A stretch of 8,474 nucleotides of DNA from an uncultured Flavobacterium sp. (GTDB lineage: Bacteria; Bacteroidota; Bacteroidia; Flavobacteriales; Flavobacteriaceae), in the NCBI GenBank assembly GCA_946480635.1, contig CAMLKV010000085.1:1-8474 (forward strand). The letters run 5' to 3'. Positions 2,429 to 8,474 of the stretch are shown one piece after another (the first letter of the stretch is position 1; each line of letters starts with the position of its first letter). The notes under the pieces were generated by a model. The model was not told the DNA's origin, searched no databases, and saw nothing but the letters and a program-made list of their open reading frames with translations. The position numbers were made by a program, and so were the translations under genes.

Positions 2429-2803
2429 CTATTCTAAGCGATAACGATTCCATGTTTGATTACCAACTCTTTGTAAACCAACTCCTAAAGATCTTGTTTC
2501 TAAAAATTCTTCTTCTCCGTTTTGGTATTGAAGAACCAAATATAGATTAGGAAATTCATATTGAATTTTCCAATAACCATATTTTACTTCGTTAGATTCT
2601 CTGGGTAACGAAAGTCCTCCTCCTGTAACACTAGTAAAAGTTTCTTTTTTAGCCTCAAAACTTTTATCATCATAAAGGGTCAGGCAAAATTTAACATCGC
2701 TATACCAACCACCTCCAGAATAATCTCTGTCGCTTTCTACATTTTCATAAACCAATTTTTTATTTGATAACAAATTGGTCATTTCAAGAACTAAATTTTC
2801 CAT
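2429..2803 (-). CDS. Small uncharacterised protein downstream of the muramidase
   Basis: A 124-aa protein that I do not recognise. After a short helical N-terminus (MENLVLEMTNLLSNKKLVYE) it alternates in a beta-strand pattern: DVKFCLTLYDDKSFEAK, then YWKIQYEFPNLYLVLQYQNG, then an EEFLETRSLG strand. The W-K-I / L-Y-L-V-L rhythm resembles small lipocalin-like or calycin-type beta barrels, but this is only an impression. There is no signal peptide and no membrane segment, so it should be cytoplasmic unless carried out with a partner. The ATG lies 5 bases after the muramidase stop, so the two are almost certainly co-transcribed. It is the last gene of the cluster. An immunity or accessory role for the muramidase is possible. 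The missing signal peptide argues against a classical periplasmic immunity protein. Confidence 0.8.
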   Translation of the reverse strand: MENLVLEMTNLLSNKKLVYENVESDRDYSGGGWYSDVKFCLTLYDDKSFEAKKETFTSVTGGGLSLPRESNEVKYGYWKIQYEFPNLYLVLQYQNGEEEFLETRSLGVGLQRVGNQTWNRYRLE

Positions 2804-2808
2804 ATCGA

Positions 2809-3636
2809 TTAGTTTGAATATTTTCGGTAGGCGCTAGCAAGTTTTTCATCATATTTATTAGATTTATATCCAGCACCATTATAGTAGTATGCAAATCGGT
2901 CCCAGTTTTTATCTTTTAATAGTGAAATTAGATTAGCGGAATGTACTTCTAAGAATCTTCCTAATGCAAGTAAATGTTCTCTTTCAGATATGTACATTTT
3001 ATCAACGAACTCAGAAATAGAGCTATAACCAATATTTGTTGCATGATATCCCATTATTTGAAAACAACCCCAAGAAGCAGAAGCTAATGCTGCCTCTGGT
3101 CCAATATTACTTGGTATTATACTGATTGCTTTTTGAAGTCGGTCATGTTCACCTTCTCCACCTACATAAAAATTCTTTGTCCAGTTTTTATATAAAACAT
3201 CTTGATTTCCGTTGACAAGCGAAGCAGGATTGACACCTCTTTTTTCAAGTTCTTTCCAAAAAATATGACCTTCAAAAAGTATTTTGGGCTTTCCGCTTAA
3301 AAGAAAGCCTTTGCCTGAACTTTCAACTTGGTTAACAGCTTTAATTGCTGCTAAATCTACGTTGTAAAGATTTGAAAAATCAATTAAATCTTGCTCAGAT
3401 AAAAATTTGCTGTTGTAATTGGTCAGGTTGGGTTGAAGTTCATATAATTTTGACCATGTTTTAGGACCTACAACTCCATCGACTACTAAATTGTTTTTTA
3501 GTTGAAAATCTTTTACTGCTGCATCAACAACAAGTGTGAAAGAGTCTGATACATTTAGTTGAAAACCAATTTTATTCAATAATTCACAAAGAATTATAAC
3601 TTCGGGGCATTTGACATTGTATTGTATTGTTCTCAT
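2809..3636 (-). CDS. N-acetylmuramidase with N-terminal peptidoglycan-binding domain
   Basis: A 275-aa peptidoglycan hydrolase predicted to cut the MurNAc-GlcNAc bond. Residues about 12-66 form a PG_binding_1 module, with the typical DAAVKDFQLKNNLVVDGVVG and PKTW. Residues about 80-272 match the N-acetylmuramidase family (PF11860, formerly DUF3380): AIKAVNQVESSGKGF with E105 the likely catalytic glutamate, PKILFEGHIFWKEL, and ASWGCFQIMGYHATNIGY. Residues around FAYYYNGAGY lie near the end. There is no signal peptide, as in phage endolysins and some injected effectors, so access to the wall must come from a holin, a secretion machine or lysis. None is visible here. The ATG is 17 bases past the stop of the CYTH-like gene, and the 124-aa gene follows after 5 bases, so the three look like one transcript. 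The C-terminal catalytic domain appears complete. Confidence 0.88.
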   Translation of the reverse strand: MRTIQYNVKCPEVIILCELLNKIGFQLNVSDSFTLVVDAAVKDFQLKNNLVVDGVVGPKTWSKLYELQPNLTNYNSKFLSEQDLIDFSNLYNVDLAAIKAVNQVESSGKGFLLSGKPKILFEGHIFWKELEKRGVNPASLVNGNQDVLYKNWTKNFYVGGEGEHDRLQKAISIIPSNIGPEAALASASWGCFQIMGYHATNIGYSSISEFVDKMYISEREHLLALGRFLEVHSANLISLLKDKNWDRFAYYYNGAGYKSNKYDEKLASAYRKYSN

Positions 3637-3653: not shown

Positions 3654-4310
3654 TTATAGCTTTTGTAATAAAATTTCAGGATACGATTTCGAGTTTGTAT
3701 ACTCTAAACCGGAAATTTTAATATCTGTAAATAAAAAATTCATAGTTTGATAAAAAACTTCATTTGTATTTCCTTTTTTATCACAAAATGATTCAATGCC
3801 TAATGAATAGTAAACATTGTTGTTCAATTTATATTTAGTAAGTTCAATTCCTGATCCACTGCCAATCATTTCTTTTCCCGAAACTATTTTGTCATTTTCT
3901 GCATCGTATTTTACCAACAGTCTGTCTTTTTCAATTATAATCCATTCATTAGACAGGAAGTTTGAAGAGCTACCGATAATTATGTCTAATGGATTTTTTT
4001 GTGGATCAGTATCGAAACTAAATTTCACCCATGAATTGACATTCCCATTATTTCCATTATTAAATTTTTGAGGACCTAAATTTTCTGTCAAGGTTTTTAT
4101 TTCAACTTTGGCAATAATTTCACCTTTCTCATTCTTTTTCGGTTCTCTTAATTTAACTCCCAATTGAGTTGAATCTGTTTTAAGGTAATAATCCTGTCTT
4201 TCAAATAAATTACCGTCTTTAAAATACTCGTTATGTTTTGAAAACCATTTCTCTACGATGTTCATCTTGTCTGAAGACAAAACCCATCTTGTTTCGGTAC
4301 TTACTAACAT
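3654..4310 (-). CDS. CYTH-like domain protein (triphosphate-tunnel fold)
   Basis: A 218-aa protein from the ATG at 4308-4310. A longer form could begin at a TTG at 4347-4349, but it would overlap the upstream gene by 28 bases, while the ATG starts 11 bases after that stop and just before the conserved region. The pattern recalls CYTH-type proteins: STETRWVLSSDK...EKWF near the N-terminus, RQDYYLKTDSTQLGVKLREP, then KVEIKTLTENLG, NSWVKFSF, an IEKDRLLVKYD strand, and SGIELTKYKLNNNVYYSLGIESF. The charged alternating strands fit the tunnel barrel that binds triphosphates or polyphosphate with divalent metal. The classical N-terminal ExExK is not seen, only ETR and the internal EIK, so enzymatic activity is uncertain. 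There is no signal peptide. It sits between the 602-aa gene and the muramidase in a tight operon. Its role there is unknown. Confidence 0.75.
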   Translation of the reverse strand: MLVSTETRWVLSSDKMNIVEKWFSKHNEYFKDGNLFERQDYYLKTDSTQLGVKLREPKKNEKGEIIAKVEIKTLTENLGPQKFNNGNNGNVNSWVKFSFDTDPQKNPLDIIIGSSSNFLSNEWIIIEKDRLLVKYDAENDKIVSGKEMIGSGSGIELTKYKLNNNVYYSLGIESFCDKKGNTNEVFYQTMNFLFTDIKISGLEYTNSKSYPEILLQKL

Positions 4311-4321
4311 AGTTTTGCATA

Positions 4322-6130
4322 TTAATTTATCAATGGTAACTTTTCGCAAATCATTCCAATTAAAAAATATGACTTATACTCAACAATATCTCTCGATAGC
4401 TCATAGTTTAATTTAATGGGGTTGTTATTTTCTACGTTTATTTCAATAGTTTTTGAAGTATAGAAATCACATTTTAAATCGATTGTATATTTTCCAACAG
4501 GTAAAATGGTTGAAATGACTCCTTCTTGATTAGTTTCAATTTCTCTTACAATATTATTACCTTCTTTTCCTTTAATTGAGATAGAACATTTATAAACTCC
4601 ACTTTTACTCACAGAGTCATTTACTGTGAAAGTTGTGTTGGCACCAAAAATAGGAAAGGCAGCAATTATTGGAGTAAGTAATGTTGTATTGATGTGTAAT
4701 GTTGTGCCTATAGGTCTTGCTTCAATGGGTTTAGTTTCAACTGGTTTAACATCAATAGGTTTAATGATATTGATTTTTGGAGAGTTTAGAACCCTCATGT
4801 TTGCAGTATTTATATTAGCAGTGCTTTTAATTTCGGAATTAATTATTGGTGTTACTTCTCTAGTTTCTGTTTTTTGGATTTCTAAGCTTGTGTTTTCAGA
4901 TTTTCTGGATAAATATTGCAATTGATTTGATCGAATTGTCTCTTTATTTGTTACAACTTTTAGGAAGCTTGTATTGTTTAGTTTGTTTACAAACATTTGA
5001 TTTTTTAAAACTAATGGCCCAAAGTGAATCATGTTGTTAATCGCATTGATTTGACTTTCAATGATATTGGTTTCTAAATCTACTTTTAGATTTTTCATCA
5101 AAATCATGATTTTTGGGAATGCTGGTAGCTGAAAATCATTAGAAATAGTTTGCCCATCAGAAATTTTCTTTTCGTTTGTATGTGAGAAAAATTTTTGATT
5201 GAATATTTCTTTGTTGAACCAACTTCTTTTTAAATGAACAAATGAATAATCAAGCTCTATGCCTTTGATATATTTTTCATCATATTCTAGGGATAAAATT
5301 TCTTCAGGAATACCAACAGAAGATTGTTTTGCTTTTAGATACAGTTCGTCTAATTCTTTTTTGTCAATTTTTAAATTGTTCCAGCCTGATTCATTTACCA
5401 TGAAATCATAAGGACTAAAGTCTATATTATGATATGAAGCAAGTGTTTCTACTCCTGTTTTTTTAGTGATATCAAAAATTGATTTTGTTGATTCTAACAG
5501 ACTTAAATATTTTTCTAATTCGGTATTATTATTAATCTCATTGATTGCTTTTTCAACTAAATTTTTAAAACCTTTTACCTCTAATTCAGCATAAGCCAAT
5601 TTGGCTTTTGATTTTAAGACCAAAAGTTTTTCTTCCCAAGCTGTTTTTTCAGAGTCTGTTGATAAGGAACCAAATTCTGATAGATGTTCTTGAACGGTAT
5701 CAAGACTTTTTTCATATAACTCAAGATATTTTAAATAAGCTTTATACTCTTTAGTTGCTTTTTGTTTTGTATCAAATAAAACAGATGAATCCTTTAATTC
5801 TAACTTAAGGAATTGATCCTGAAGTCCTATTGGTTGTATATTTTCAAGAATGTTTTTATAAACTTCTGATAAGATATTTTGAGGATTTACACTCCAGTTT
5901 GATGATGAGGTAGGAATAGAGTTAAGTTCGTTAGAAACCTGCTCTTTCTTTAGTAAAGATTCACCTATAACGTTTTTGTCTGTAATTTGACTTTGTGGTC
6001 TTAGTAATTCTAATTCTTCCTTAGAATACATAGTTAAAGATGGACATATTAATGGTAAATCATTTTCATTAGAATTAAGAGACAAATACGTGTCTTTTAG
6101 TTTTTGATATAGTGAGATATAGTATTTCAT
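4322..6130 (-). CDS. Large uncharacterised protein, distant paralog of the 516-aa neighbour, with Ig-like insertion
   Basis: A 602-aa protein of unknown function with no signal peptide or membrane helix. Residues 1-100 are variable. Residues 120-225 are helical or coiled-coil and resemble the central segment of the 516-aa neighbour: KEYKAYLKYLELYEKSLDTV, then GFKNLVEKAINEI. Residues 230-352 share further landmarks with it: NESGW, LDYSF, WF (304-305), ISDG (323-326), LPAFP and NLKV. LP and LKV are 13 residues apart in both proteins. After a polar stretch come four 5-residue repeats (about 456-475, [KR]P[IV] core). An Ig-like or carboxypeptidase-regulatory-like domain occupies about 500-577 (GVYKCSISIKGKEG, then LPVGKYTIDLKC). 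The end, FLIGMICEKLPLIN, resembles LLIGRKCNILDLSPNPLP of the neighbour. The ATG follows an A-rich leader immediately after the internal terminator. The CYTH-like gene starts 11 bases downstream. Confidence 0.85.
   Translation of the reverse strand: MKYYISLYQKLKDTYLSLNSNENDLPLICPSLTMYSKEELELLRPQSQITDKNVIGESLLKKEQVSNELNSIPTSSSNWSVNPQNILSEVYKNILENIQPIGLQDQFLKLELKDSSVLFDTKQKATKEYKAYLKYLELYEKSLDTVQEHLSEFGSLSTDSEKTAWEEKLLVLKSKAKLAYAELEVKGFKNLVEKAINEINNNTELEKYLSLLESTKSIFDITKKTGVETLASYHNIDFSPYDFMVNESGWNNLKIDKKELDELYLKAKQSSVGIPEEILSLEYDEKYIKGIELDYSFVHLKRSWFNKEIFNQKFFSHTNEKKISDGQTISNDFQLPAFPKIMILMKNLKVDLETNIIESQINAINNMIHFGPLVLKNQMFVNKLNNTSFLKVVTNKETIRSNQLQYLSRKSENTSLEIQKTETREVTPIINSEIKSTANINTANMRVLNSPKINIIKPIDVKPVETKPIEARPIGTTLHINTTLLTPIIAAFPIFGANTTFTVNDSVSKSGVYKCSISIKGKEGNNIVREIETNQEGVISTILPVGKYTIDLKCDFYTSKTIEINVENNNPIKLNYELSRDIVEYKSYFLIGMICEKLPLIN
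4710..4769 (-). repeat. Four imperfect 15-bp tandem units encoding a [KR]P[IV]-rich linker
   Basis: On the plus strand the units read ATAGGTCTTGCTTCA, ATGGGTTTAGTTTCA, ACTGGTTTAACATCA and ATAGGTTTAATGATA. They lie inside the 602-aa gene and keep its frame, giving KPID, KPVE, KPIE and RPIG spaced five residues apart. This is probably a flexible linker between the shared core and the Ig-like domain. Unit number could vary between strains. Confidence 0.6.
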
Positions 6131-6149
6131 TTTTTTAGTTTTAGTTTGT

Positions 6150-6182
6150 TTAAAAAGCCAAACACCGTGAGGTGTTTGGCTT
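6150..6182 (-). terminator. Strong intrinsic terminator inside the cluster, after the 516-aa gene
   Basis: A perfect 12-bp stem, AAGCCAAACACC (6155-6166) with GGTGTTTGGCTT (6171-6182), closes on a 4-nt loop. Read on the minus strand, the stem ends GGTGTTTGGCTT and runs into TTTA. It starts 9 bases after the 516-aa stop and ends about 20 bases before the 602-aa ATG. No convincing promoter fits in the remaining gap, so downstream genes probably depend on partial read-through or on a promoter inside the 516-aa gene. Confidence 0.85.
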
Positions 6183-6191
6183 AAAAATGAA

Positions 6192-7742
6192 TTAGTTAAC
6201 TTCTACCCATTCATCATCTTTAATTGATGGTAGTGGGTTAGGTGACAGGTCTAAAATGTTACATTTTCTACCTATTAATAATATACCACCTGAAGATAAT
6301 CCTTGTTGCTCTCTTTTTCCTGTACTGTTTACGCGAGTGTCTTCATAACCATATGTACCTCCAAACATAAAAGGACCTATAGCTAAATGAGCTCCAGCTT
6401 TTACTTCATCTTCTGCTCTTTTGTAAGAATCAGAGCCTTTTTTGAAACCAATTTTTAAATCAGAAATAAAATATAATTCTGTCGTAACAGCAGGTAATAA
6501 TCCTTTACCATTACCGTCACTGATCATTTGGTTGTTTAGAATTTCAGCACCATTTTTTGAGTATTTCCAATAACGTGATTTAAGGAATGTACTACCAAAC
6601 CAAGGGCTTGATACATAACATTTTCCTATTTTAAATGACATTTCGAATTGGTTAAAGTCATAAGATGAATCTATTCTTTTGTGTTTTCCTGTTCCGCCAA
6701 CATTAACCATACCAGCAAAACTTGCAGCAGCACTCCAGCTGTGTGCCGTACTTTTGTAGTTTGATTCATATTCACTTTTACTAAATTTATACTCCAACCA
6801 TTTTGTTGAATTGGCTAAAGTACTTGCTGGGACAGGTTGAGAGAAGTAATAGGTATTCATACCTCCTAAACCAGTTCTTTTTGCTGCTAAAAGTTCAGAT
6901 TCATAACGCTTTTTGATAGTGATAAAGTTGCTACTTTCAGTTTCATCAATATAGTTTAACGCTTTTTCAATTTTTCCTTTGTATCCAATTCCTTCCCATC
7001 TTTTCAATGCATCATCTCTTCTTTTGATATAATTACGGCCATTGATTGCCATTTCGGTCATTGCTTCACTATCTCCGTCAGATACTCTTTTTTGAAGATC
7101 TGTTAATTTGTCTTCTGCTTCATAATACAAAGCTTCATACTCTAAATATTTAACATACTGTGGTGAAGGAAAAGATTGATAGATGAATTTTGGGTTATCT
7201 TCTGGATGTTCAACAACAGATTCATCAAAATCAGGATTTGCTAGTTTTTTAATTGTAACAATTTGTTTTCTTAAAGTCTCTAATTTCTTTTCAACTTTAG
7301 GGTCAATTTTTGAATTTTTGACTACACAATAATCCAAAACATCACTATAAACATTTGATTTTGTATGATCAGGATGGGGGTTAAAAATGGTGAATTTTCT
7401 AGCTCCAGATGCTGGATCAATTTCTGGAATCATACTAGGAATTTGATCTGCTATTCTAGCAAATTCTTCTGCATAAGCAAATTTGCTGTATTTTTTTGAG
7501 CTTCTAGCATCTGCATATTCCTCATCTGACATGTTTTCTAATTTTGGAGTAGCTCCAAAAAATCCTTTTAAAGCATAATCAAAAGCTTCGGGATCCATGA
7601 CTACAGGAACTGGCTCCCAAGCAATAAAGTTGTTAGGGCCTAACATTTTGGCGTCACCGCCATTAGTCATTTTTTTAAAAACATCGCCTAATAGATAATT
7701 TAAAAAATCTTTTTCATCAGGCATTGGTGTAAAATCTGGCAT
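6192..7742 (-). CDS. Uncharacterised 516-aa multi-domain protein, core of the paralogous family
   Basis: A 516-aa protein of unknown function with an acidic start (MPDFTPMPDEKDF) and no signal peptide or membrane helix. Residues 1-140 form a mixed N-terminal region with MLGPNNFIAWEPVPVVMDPE. Residues 150-280 are strongly helical; 191-261 match the whole second half of the adjacent 117-aa protein (32 of 71 identical, no gap). Residues 295-435 are beta-rich: NSTKWLEYKFSK, HSWSAAASFAGMVNVGGTGK, FEMSFKIGKCYVSSPWFGS, ISDG (407-410) and a LPAVTTELYFISDLKIGF strand pair. Residues 450-500 are a glycine-rich beta segment (GAHLAIGPFMFGGTYGYED), ending in SSGGILLIGRKCNILDLSPN. The alternating small and hydrophobic strands could suit oligomeric or pore-forming beta structure, but this is speculation. 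Similar W...SA, WF and ISDG patterns occur, from memory, in uncharacterised bacterial and fungal proteins. A terminator follows the stop directly. Confidence 0.87.
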   Translation of the reverse strand: MPDFTPMPDEKDFLNYLLGDVFKKMTNGGDAKMLGPNNFIAWEPVPVVMDPEAFDYALKGFFGATPKLENMSDEEYADARSSKKYSKFAYAEEFARIADQIPSMIPEIDPASGARKFTIFNPHPDHTKSNVYSDVLDYCVVKNSKIDPKVEKKLETLRKQIVTIKKLANPDFDESVVEHPEDNPKFIYQSFPSPQYVKYLEYEALYYEAEDKLTDLQKRVSDGDSEAMTEMAINGRNYIKRRDDALKRWEGIGYKGKIEKALNYIDETESSNFITIKKRYESELLAAKRTGLGGMNTYYFSQPVPASTLANSTKWLEYKFSKSEYESNYKSTAHSWSAAASFAGMVNVGGTGKHKRIDSSYDFNQFEMSFKIGKCYVSSPWFGSTFLKSRYWKYSKNGAEILNNQMISDGNGKGLLPAVTTELYFISDLKIGFKKGSDSYKRAEDEVKAGAHLAIGPFMFGGTYGYEDTRVNSTGKREQQGLSSGGILLIGRKCNILDLSPNPLPSIKDDEWVEVN

Positions 7743-7775
7743 AATATTAAATTTTTAGTTTGTTCCTACTCTTTT

Positions 7776-7799
7776 TAAGGCTTTTCGGAATTCGCCTTA
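7776..7799. other. Inverted repeat between the 117-aa and 516-aa genes
   Basis: TAAGGC (7776-7781) and GCCTTA (7794-7799) can pair around a 12-nt loop that contains GAATTC. On the minus strand, the direction of the flanking genes, the stem is followed by AAAAAGAG rather than a T-run, so it is not a standard terminator. It may be an RNA processing or stabilising hairpin in the 60-base spacer. Confidence 0.4.
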
Positions 7800-7802
7800 T
7801 AA

Positions 7803-8156
7803 TTATTTTGCACTTTCTGATATTATTTTTTCTATCTCATTTTTATAGCCTATGGCTGACCACAGCTTAAGTGCATTTTCAACTTTTTTAATATGAGATG
7901 AACCAGAAAAGTTCATTTCGGTCATTGCGTCAATCTCTCCATTTTCAACTTTCTCTTTTAAAGTATTTAGTTTATCAGATAGATTTAAATAATTATCCCT
8001 ACATTCTAAATATTTAGCGAATTTGGTTGATGGATAGGTGTTTGAAACTCCATTTTTATCTTTTTTAACTTGACCAAGTTTTTCTTTTAGATATTGAAGT
8101 CTGTTAGTATCTGTGACATCGTTGAAGATTTCTTCAATTGTCTTATCAGTTTCCAT
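7803..8156 (-). CDS. Small helical protein, stand-alone copy of the central module of the 516-aa protein
   Basis: A 117-aa soluble, charged, helical protein with no signal peptide. Residues 41-111 align without gaps to residues 191-261 of the 516-aa neighbour, with 32 identities in 71 counted by eye. Key blocks are KYLE, DKL..L...V, AMTEM, HIK / YIK, ALK.W and IGYK..IEK. At the DNA level a 15-base run, CATTTCGGTCATTGC, is shared. Residues 1-40 are unrelated to the neighbour as far as I can see. The ATG lies 10 bases after the protease stop, so the two are co-transcribed. The 516-aa gene follows after 60 bases. It may be a partner or inhibitor of its larger relative through the shared helical module, a subunit of the same assembly, or a truncated duplicate. 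The clean start, normal stop and sustained conservation favour a working gene. No function is known. Confidence 0.85.
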   Translation of the reverse strand: METDKTIEEIFNDVTDTNRLQYLKEKLGQVKKDKNGVSNTYPSTKFAKYLECRDNYLNLSDKLNTLKEKVENGEIDAMTEMNFSGSSHIKKVENALKLWSAIGYKNEIEKIISESAK

Positions 8157-8166
8157 TTTGATTTAA

Positions 8167-8474
8167 TTAAGGATATTCTGTCCTTGCTTTGTTTACTAAG
8201 TCTACTAAATCAGAACCCCCACTTGCACCATTGTTTGATGCTGTTTGCCAACTTTGAACTGCTACTACATAAGGTGTTGATCCCCAATATCCCCAGAATG
8301 GGCCACCACTTTGTCCAGGCCATATATCACCTTGATGATACATTGCTTGATGTGCATCTGTTGTTAAAGCATCACCATCTAATGCGATACTGTTTTGGTA
8401 AGTAGGTCTTTGTGCACCCGTTTTATCCATAGGATATCCTGCATGAGTCCAAGAAGCTAAACCATCCCAAGAAT
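8167..8474 (-). CDS. Trypsin/V8-like serine protease, C-terminal part (runs off right edge)
   Basis: The frame is open to the right edge; the visible 101 residues are the C-terminal end of a chymotrypsin-fold serine peptidase, glutamyl-endopeptidase or V8-like. Visible landmarks are SWTHAGYPMDKT, where the GYP strand typically follows the second barrel's start, then DIWPGQSGGPFWG, with the GxSGGP catalytic serine and oxyanion hole. After it come a PYVVAVQSWQ strand and SGGSDLVDLVNKARTEYP, the usual C-terminal helix of these enzymes. The methionine at 8428-8430 is internal to the fold, not a start. The catalytic His and Asp and any signal peptide lie outside the window, so export cannot be judged. 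The 117-aa gene starts 10 bases after the stop, which makes this the most upstream visible member of the cluster. Homologs are often secreted. Confidence 0.88.
   Translation of the reverse strand, partial: SWDGLASWTHAGYPMDKTGAQRPTYQNSIALDGDALTTDAHQAMYHQGDIWPGQSGGPFWGYWGSTPYVVAVQSWQTASNNGASGGSDLVDLVNKARTEYP

Follow-up and report, generated by a model that had tools for sequence, protein, structure and literature searches.

A paralogous protein pair clustered with an endolysin-like muramidase in Flavobacterium: a candidate protease-gated lysis module resembling bacterial gasdermin operons

In a stretch of 8,474 nucleotides from an uncultured Flavobacterium sp. (contig CAMLKV010000085.1; hereafter the window), the minus strand carries adjacent genes for two divergent relatives, a 516-amino-acid (aa) protein (A; 6192..7742) and a 602-aa protein (B; 4322..6130), in a cluster with an endolysin-like peptidoglycan hydrolase. 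We propose, at slightly below even odds (a probability of about 0.48), that this cluster is a cytosolic lysis module gated by proteases, working in the manner of a bacterial gasdermin operon equipped with an endolysin. A would be a gasdermin-like pore former, with a helical insert and a beta core, two segments of which would become amphipathic membrane hairpins on refolding. B, a paralogue that has the core and mostly lacks the hairpins, may be a regulator, a cap or a co-assembling subunit. Proteases encoded upstream, with a 117-aa copy of the helical insert as recruiting adaptor, would, once triggered, cut and release A (or both A and B), and the resulting pore in the inner membrane would let a muramidase without an evident signal peptide reach peptidoglycan, whereupon the cell would lyse. 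The homology of A and B, their conserved clustering with a hydrolase, the varied hydrolase and protease families nearby and the anatomy of the segments were computed directly, and from sequence and predicted structure we infer pore formation, cleavage, the adaptor role and lysis. The purpose of such a module would presumably be altruistic death, for example against phage.

More tentatively, the pair may belong to a two-protein, bacteria-wide branch of the gasdermin fold, in which a hairpin-bearing A is usually accompanied by a hairpin-poor B, an interchangeable hydrolase and, in some lineages, equally interchangeable proteases, such that the operon would combine trigger, pore and endolysin. 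If true, gasdermin-type death in bacteria would be broader than the single-gene bacterial gasdermins (bGSDMs) and would include a two-subunit form whose pore may be controlled by a paralogue. Pore and endolysin would also be linked in one conserved cluster, making the published 'holin-endolysin mimicry' idea (PMC9612521) directly testable. Finally, a function would be assigned to a family of Bacteroidota, of alphaproteobacterial plasmids and, by genus names, of Myxococcota and Cyanobacteria, whose named members among the matches listed are nearly all hypothetical or uncharacterized. A literature search, which missed preprints and most subscription journals, found no paper describing the A-B pair.

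Homology, anatomy and predicted fold of A and B

A first-pass annotation, made by a model from the sequence alone, had described three minus-strand open reading frames (ORFs) as members of one uncharacterised family. The ORFs themselves, i.e., those of A, B and a 117-aa protein (7803..8156), were confirmed. BLASTP between A and B gave 39.7 bits (E 4e-7; the E-values for these three proteins apply to a three-sequence search only). Shuffled versions of the 602-aa sequence matched A in 333 of 500 cases, with a top score of 26.9 bits. Profile-profile comparison of the A family (A1, 54 rows) with the B family (A2, 65 rows) gave a probability of 98.2 and an E-value of 5e-14 over residues 83-460 of A and 54-375 of B; profile similarity between the two large proteins, one of the two points on which the family claim had been staked, was thus found. 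For the other, a common core fold, structure prediction covered A and a distant relative of A. A and B are divergent relatives with a common core. The 117-aa protein matched residues 187-262 of A with 42% identity (70.9 bits, E 2e-19), and its comparison with B was not significant (18.1 bits). It contains none of the beta-core motifs, and is therefore a stand-alone copy of the helical insert and not a third full member.

As to the motifs cited in that annotation, KYLE was found in all three proteins, as was G[YF]K..[IV]EK, the final A of which is confined to the 516- and 602-aa proteins; DKL..L is present in the 117- and 516-aa proteins and absent from B. Both large proteins contain N[SE]..W, SF, WF, ISDG, LP and LIG..C, with LK[IV] exactly 13 residues past LP (416 to 429 and 335 to 348, respectively). 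Protein searches matched 60 proteins with A and at least 119 with B. A further family, reached through genome G213 and expanded with the protein P0180 to at least 122 proteins, unites both, since its profile (A4) matches A (probability 99.9, E 9.9e-37) as well as B (hhalign probability 97.0, E 1e-10).

The model of A had a predicted local distance difference test (pLDDT) score of 75.8 and a predicted template modelling (pTM) score of 0.64. The helical insert (residues 194-287; 6882..7163) forms four helices in this model and is common to the 117-aa protein and to P0060, a single metagenomic protein in which it is fused to a subtilase (75% identity over 16% of the query); this fusion could be an assembly artefact. 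The 117-aa protein clusters with L001:9881-10231 and with an ORF of 150 aa in L005, and has an orthologue at L061:8862-9212.

Two hairpin-like segments of A were delineated from the model and from alignment columns. Segment 1 (residues 330-362; 6657..6755) contains a low-pLDDT loop at 333-352 between core strands 316-320 and 366-378, and segment 2 (residues 440-480; 6303..6425) a similar loop at 461-479 between core strands 418-433 and 482-496. Both are low-confidence loops in the model of A and not in that of P0180. Members of the A family that were read comprise 438-588 aa, and in 12 of the 13 compared the counterparts of segments 1 and 2 measured 38-43 and 47 residues, the remaining member (L062) having 65 and 71; these lengths depend on one MAFFT alignment. 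In the P0180 alignment, small and hydrophobic residues alternate on both sides of the turn with few charges, and the pattern recurs in the window's own family with more charged residues. A sliding alternation score did not place the hairpin segments above the core strands, and the putative hairpins were picked out by column-wise inspection, a directed look at chosen segments. With respect to the autoinhibitory C-terminal peptide that proteolysis removes from bGSDMs, the A1 family ends in a conserved tail, about 20 residues long, past the last core strand, where the A4 rows shown mostly end sooner.

The segments distinguish A from B. Adjacent pairs were compared at 13 loci, three from the close group (of 43) and ten found among 13 distant loci (L057-L059, L062-L065 and L084-L089), whose neighbours were read by eye and partly scanned; at the other three distant loci, L063, L088 and L089, there is no pair. 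In each pair, A was read with both glycine-rich segments between core strands. By the same reading, both segments were missing from B in 11 of the 13, only the first was missing in L064, and L065 was ambiguous. The first segment of the A-type proteins of L088 and L089 is highly charged, making their place among A less sure. In the B of the window, segment 1 is represented by 26 residues and segment 2 is replaced by a 229-residue stretch. A CarboxypepD_reg/PEGA-like beta domain (residues 502-585; 4376..4627) appears to be inserted in this protein, based on a weak Pfam match (PF13715, E 0.0027, below the cut-off). Several relatives of B carry a precomputed PF13620 match, and one also PF08308.

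Predicted structure suggests that the fold of A may be gasdermin-like. In a structural comparison of the P0180-family model, gasdermins were the only full-length matches among those listed, with a weak score. VIA-align of the 516-aa model gave coiled-coil matches to residues 146-271 and no gasdermin among the matches listed, and a Foldseek comparison of this model with viral structures was uninformative. A matched no gasdermin family up to E 1 in Pfam or 0.1 in NCBIfam, PHROGs and PADLOC, libraries that may hold no bGSDM-detecting model, nor did distant A members up to 0.1 in Pfam. A cysteine in the first 12 residues was present in none of the 54 A1 rows and in two of the 70 A4 rows. Because of the missing sequence match, the missing N-terminal cysteine and the weak fold score, we do not file A and B as gasdermins; by analogy, they may be said to work like gasdermins without being classed as such. 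Neither protein has holin-like hydrophobicity (best 19-residue hydropathy 1.02 for A and 1.38 for B). A, B and the 117-aa protein are unnamed by Pfam, NCBIfam, PHROGs and PADLOC, with no match of A or B above cut-offs. The first-pass remark that no named system with this layout was recognised thus holds for the scanned family libraries, but the layout does resemble bacterial gasdermin operons.

Gene neighbourhoods, conservation and distribution

The close loci number 45, i.e., 44 from a genome scan and the window, or 46 with L061 (genome G058). Both A and B are encoded in 43 of the 45, the exceptions being L041, at a contig end, and L044, which is degraded. The two genes are adjacent in 42 of these 43; in L008 (73-4593) a transposase-like gene, recognised by eye, lies between them. 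The relatives do therefore lie side by side, as the first-pass annotation had noted. Its suggestion of a multi-subunit assembly fits this stable adjacency, with the 117-aa protein excluded as a subunit of the same kind, and its alternative of a diversified effector set is not favoured, given two members with different, mostly fixed anatomies and an A that is conserved in L061. The decayed copy of L044 (9974-12231), from Kaistella palustris, comprises a truncated A, a split B and a complete muramidase ORF.

The expectation that hydrolases surround the pair was borne out. In the window, the hydrolase is a 275-aa N-acetylmuramidase with a peptidoglycan-binding domain (2809..3636; PF11860, E 3e-60; PF01471, E 1.3e-11) that matches PHROG endolysin families; neither its sequence nor a simple scan of hydropathy (best 9-residue mean 2.23, residues 13-21) gave evidence of a signal peptide. 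The muramidase cluster occurs in 41 of the 45 close loci (40 of the 43 with both A and B, plus L044), membership being by BLAST cluster, with Pfam scans for the window and L061. L005 has an Amidase_2 protein in its place, and L007 a CHAP protein with a peptidoglycan-binding domain; since A of L005 is 83% identical to that of the window, the hydrolase was probably exchanged fairly recently. No hydrolase was seen among the neighbours in L008 and L041. At the distant loci, A is immediately preceded by a CHAP gene in L057, L084, L085 and L086, an OmpA-family gene follows A in L063, and no hydrolase was noticed by the reading and partial scan of the remaining eight.

Proteases are encoded upstream in six of the eight Flavobacterium loci, corresponding to six of the 46 close loci (the window, L001-L004 and L061). 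The window edge cuts a trypsin/V8-like serine protease, leaving its C-terminal 101 aa with a GQSGGP motif (8167..8472, minus strand). This tail matched no Pfam family and shares 100 of 101 residues with L061:7895-8848. A full-length relative, L001:8908-9867, matched Trypsin (PF00089, E 2.9e-4, above the cut-off) and fell just under the cut-off for Trypsin_2 (PF13365, 9.6e-6, 26.8 against 27.6 bits). A caspase-fold gene precedes the trypsin-like gene in L001, L003, L004 and L061 (C14 by Pfam in L001, L004 and L061; by cluster and motif in L003), a place that lies beyond the edge of the window. The gene order of L061 is that of the window, with the trypsin-like gene whole and the caspase-fold gene before it. 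In L002, a papain-type protease gene (8676-9940), followed directly by a chagasin-type inhibitor gene, lies just upstream of A. No protease was seen in L005 and L006. In 32 Chryseobacterium/Kaistella loci the cluster occupies one place, with a tonB-like gene of the same sequence cluster as the window's as divergent upstream neighbour, and no protease was recognised, the other neighbours there being outside the scan.

Relatives found with the A1 profile occurred in 6 of 296 Bacteroidota genomes (E <= 0.01) and in 8 of 397 genomes of the family of G001, and those found with A4 in 6 of 395 genomes. Some of these matches are weak, and each count includes G001, the centre of the draw. Left out were G328 (L070, a distant match on a 3.4-kb contig), G427 (a weak match of 76 aa) and L060 (G278), which was taken as the same record as L009. 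By genus name, the matches include Sorangium, Stigmatella, Pendulispora and Microcoleus beside genera of Bacteroidota. The P0180-type family also occurs in four alphaproteobacterial plasmid records, and two plasmid records gave weak matches to the window's A.

F. terrae provided the best match for A in the genome scan (98% identical). Compared with L061, A is identical at 512 of 516 residues at a DNA identity of about 91-94%, which points to conservation. Recombination is not needed to explain this near-identity, as the DNA is only about 91-94% identical and most changes are silent. The corresponding values were 489/593 for B, 185/217 for the 218-aa protein, 232/270 for the muramidase, 98/117 for the 117-aa protein and 111/124 for the 124-aa protein. 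Of the complete proteins compared, A is thus the best conserved.

Known systems and rival explanations

Operons of bGSDMs were reportedly described by Johnson et al. in 2022. According to PMC9612521, they contain proteases and endolysin-like genes, and the majority of bGSDMs have a palmitoylated N-terminal cysteine. The likeness lies in a candidate pore former whose neighbours are proteases (caspase-like or trypsin-like) and lysozymes or amidases of endolysin type, and that has an N-terminal helix, a beta core and a weak full-length structural match. A co-encoded caspase-like or other protease was found, but in only 6 of the 46 close loci; unlike the hydrolase, which is constant, it is an optional partner here. 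In addition, two paralogous proteins replace the single bGSDM, members of the A family are far longer and carry the helical insert, compared with 240-255 aa for the listed bGSDM chains, and A lacks the N-terminal cysteine and a sequence-profile match.

Phage lysis relies on a membrane hole made by a holin together with a cytosolic muramidase or amidase. The cluster likewise places a peptidoglycan hydrolase without an evident signal peptide beside a candidate membrane-hole gene, an arrangement similar to the holin-endolysin lysis outlined in PMC9612521. Holins, however, are small and transmembrane, whereas the candidate here is large and soluble-looking, and neither the viral-contig scans nor the search of phage records with P0180 turned up a confirmed relative. 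CARD-NLR gasdermin systems and LypABC (PMC13236601) are comparable in being protease-driven, host-encoded lysis systems with a helical recruitment domain. They differ in that we noticed neither an NLR-like ATPase nor a CARD protein here, where no model-based search for them was made, and in that the helical module here is common to the effector itself. In fungal RCD-1 (PMC10989679), two variants of one gasdermin-like fold act together, but these are antagonistic alleles, whereas A and B are encoded side by side and the hairpin segments are mostly missing from B.

Several observations speak against a protease-gated lysis module, at least in its simplest form, which does not account for them: the fixed genomic place in Chryseobacterium, members in S. 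meliloti that look exported, A-type genes that stand alone beside a small lipoprotein-like gene in L088 and L089, and the fact that most loci have no recognised protease. The main rival, which we consider unlikely, holds that A, B, the hydrolase and the proteases attack other bacteria: released through type VI secretion, a contractile injection particle or lysis, these antibacterial effectors would perforate and digest competitors. Hydrolases without an evident signal peptide suit injection as well as an endolysin role, and the exported-looking S. meliloti members, of which there are two, fit such effectors. So do the chagasin inhibitor beside the papain-type protease of L002, as if for self-protection, the lipoprotein-like partner in L088 and L089, which could be an immunity protein, and the hemopexin and L,D-transpeptidase-type protein of L086. 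However, we noticed no gene for secretion or injection in the listed neighbourhoods, in which no model-based search for such genes was made. Nor was a general immunity gene seen, since the 124-aa and 218-aa companions have cluster members in Flavobacterium loci only. The high conservation of A, 512 of 516 residues in L061, is also unlike that of polymorphic toxins.

A reading without any death function, in which A and B are a constitutive scaffold, cytosolic or in the envelope, that positions or holds the peptidoglycan hydrolase for growth or remodelling, seems quite improbable. Consistent with such a scaffold are the OmpA-family neighbour in L063, the fixed place that the cluster occupies beside a tonB-like gene in 32 Chryseobacterium/Kaistella loci, and an A whose amino-acid changes are few for its DNA divergence. 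Presence is patchy, however (6/296, 6/395 and 8/397 genomes), proteases of several families lie upstream in Flavobacterium, and the decay of L044 and the interrupting gene of L008 show that the cluster can be lost. The gasdermin and the MACPF/CDC superfamilies both have two strand-hairpin-strand units that lie between four core strands. This anatomy counts for a reading to which we give little credence, namely that the beta core belongs to another, MACPF/CDC-like class of pore formers and that the gasdermin match reflects only shared topology. The single weak MACPF row among the Foldseek matches listed, the membrane-attack-complex chain 6h04_F (rank 12, E 0.41), argues in the same direction. 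On the other hand, A matched no MACPF or thiol-cytolysin family in Pfam up to E 1, and only gasdermins align full-length among the matches listed, a result that does not suffice to exclude MACPF. A phage origin, with lysis or tail genes persisting in the chromosome, is very improbable. The match of the muramidase to endolysin families speaks for it, but scans of viral contigs with A1, A4 and A2 confirmed no relative, and P0180 matched none of 50,697 phage records (A and B themselves being outside this last search).

Accessory genes and flanking features

Read along the minus strand, the window contains the trypsin-like tail, the 117-aa gene, A, B, a 218-aa gene, the muramidase, a 124-aa gene and then the tonB-like gene. 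The 218-aa accessory gene (3654..4310) has no assigned function; its product belongs to the same cluster as proteins in L001 and L005, and the L061 orthologue fixes its start at MLVSTETRW. A Pfam search with a 225-aa reading returned no family match other than a sub-threshold DOMON hit (E 0.053). By eye, this protein may resemble CYTH/triphosphate-tunnel proteins, with no library match. The 124-aa accessory protein (2429..2803), likewise without assigned function, matched nothing in Pfam, clusters with proteins in L001-L004 and has an orthologue in L061.

Other genes were noted beside the cluster at individual loci. Genes of defence type share the stretch with some distant copies: the L057 stretch contains a KAP NTPase (PADLOC PDC-S20) and an Old-like ATPase, and the L064 stretch a ThsB-like TIR gene. 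A YLATT (PF20303) protein with three transmembrane segments lies downstream of B at L007:13427-14140, L008:4609-5298 and L086:4041-4691, assigned by Pfam in L007 and L086 and by cluster only in L008; literature searches returned no paper on it. At L086:4706-7849, beside A and B, a hemopexin-repeat protein with an L,D-transpeptidase domain and a long glycine/serine/asparagine-rich protein are encoded. In L009, L010 and L040, the muramidase is followed by a second gene, assigned to the cluster that includes the CHAP protein of L007, but the copy at L009:14490-15035 had no Pfam match up to 0.01.

On the other side of the cluster, a 263-aa protein with a signal-peptide-like start and the tonB-like gene (634-1425 and 1488-2309 of the window) adjoin it, as they do in L001 and L061. 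At positions 1-425 of the window, the start of the lipoyl synthase gene (lipA) seems broken in comparison with L001 and L061: the frame changes after CPNMGE, and a stretch conserved in those two loci is absent from the window, which may be a sequencing or assembly fault.

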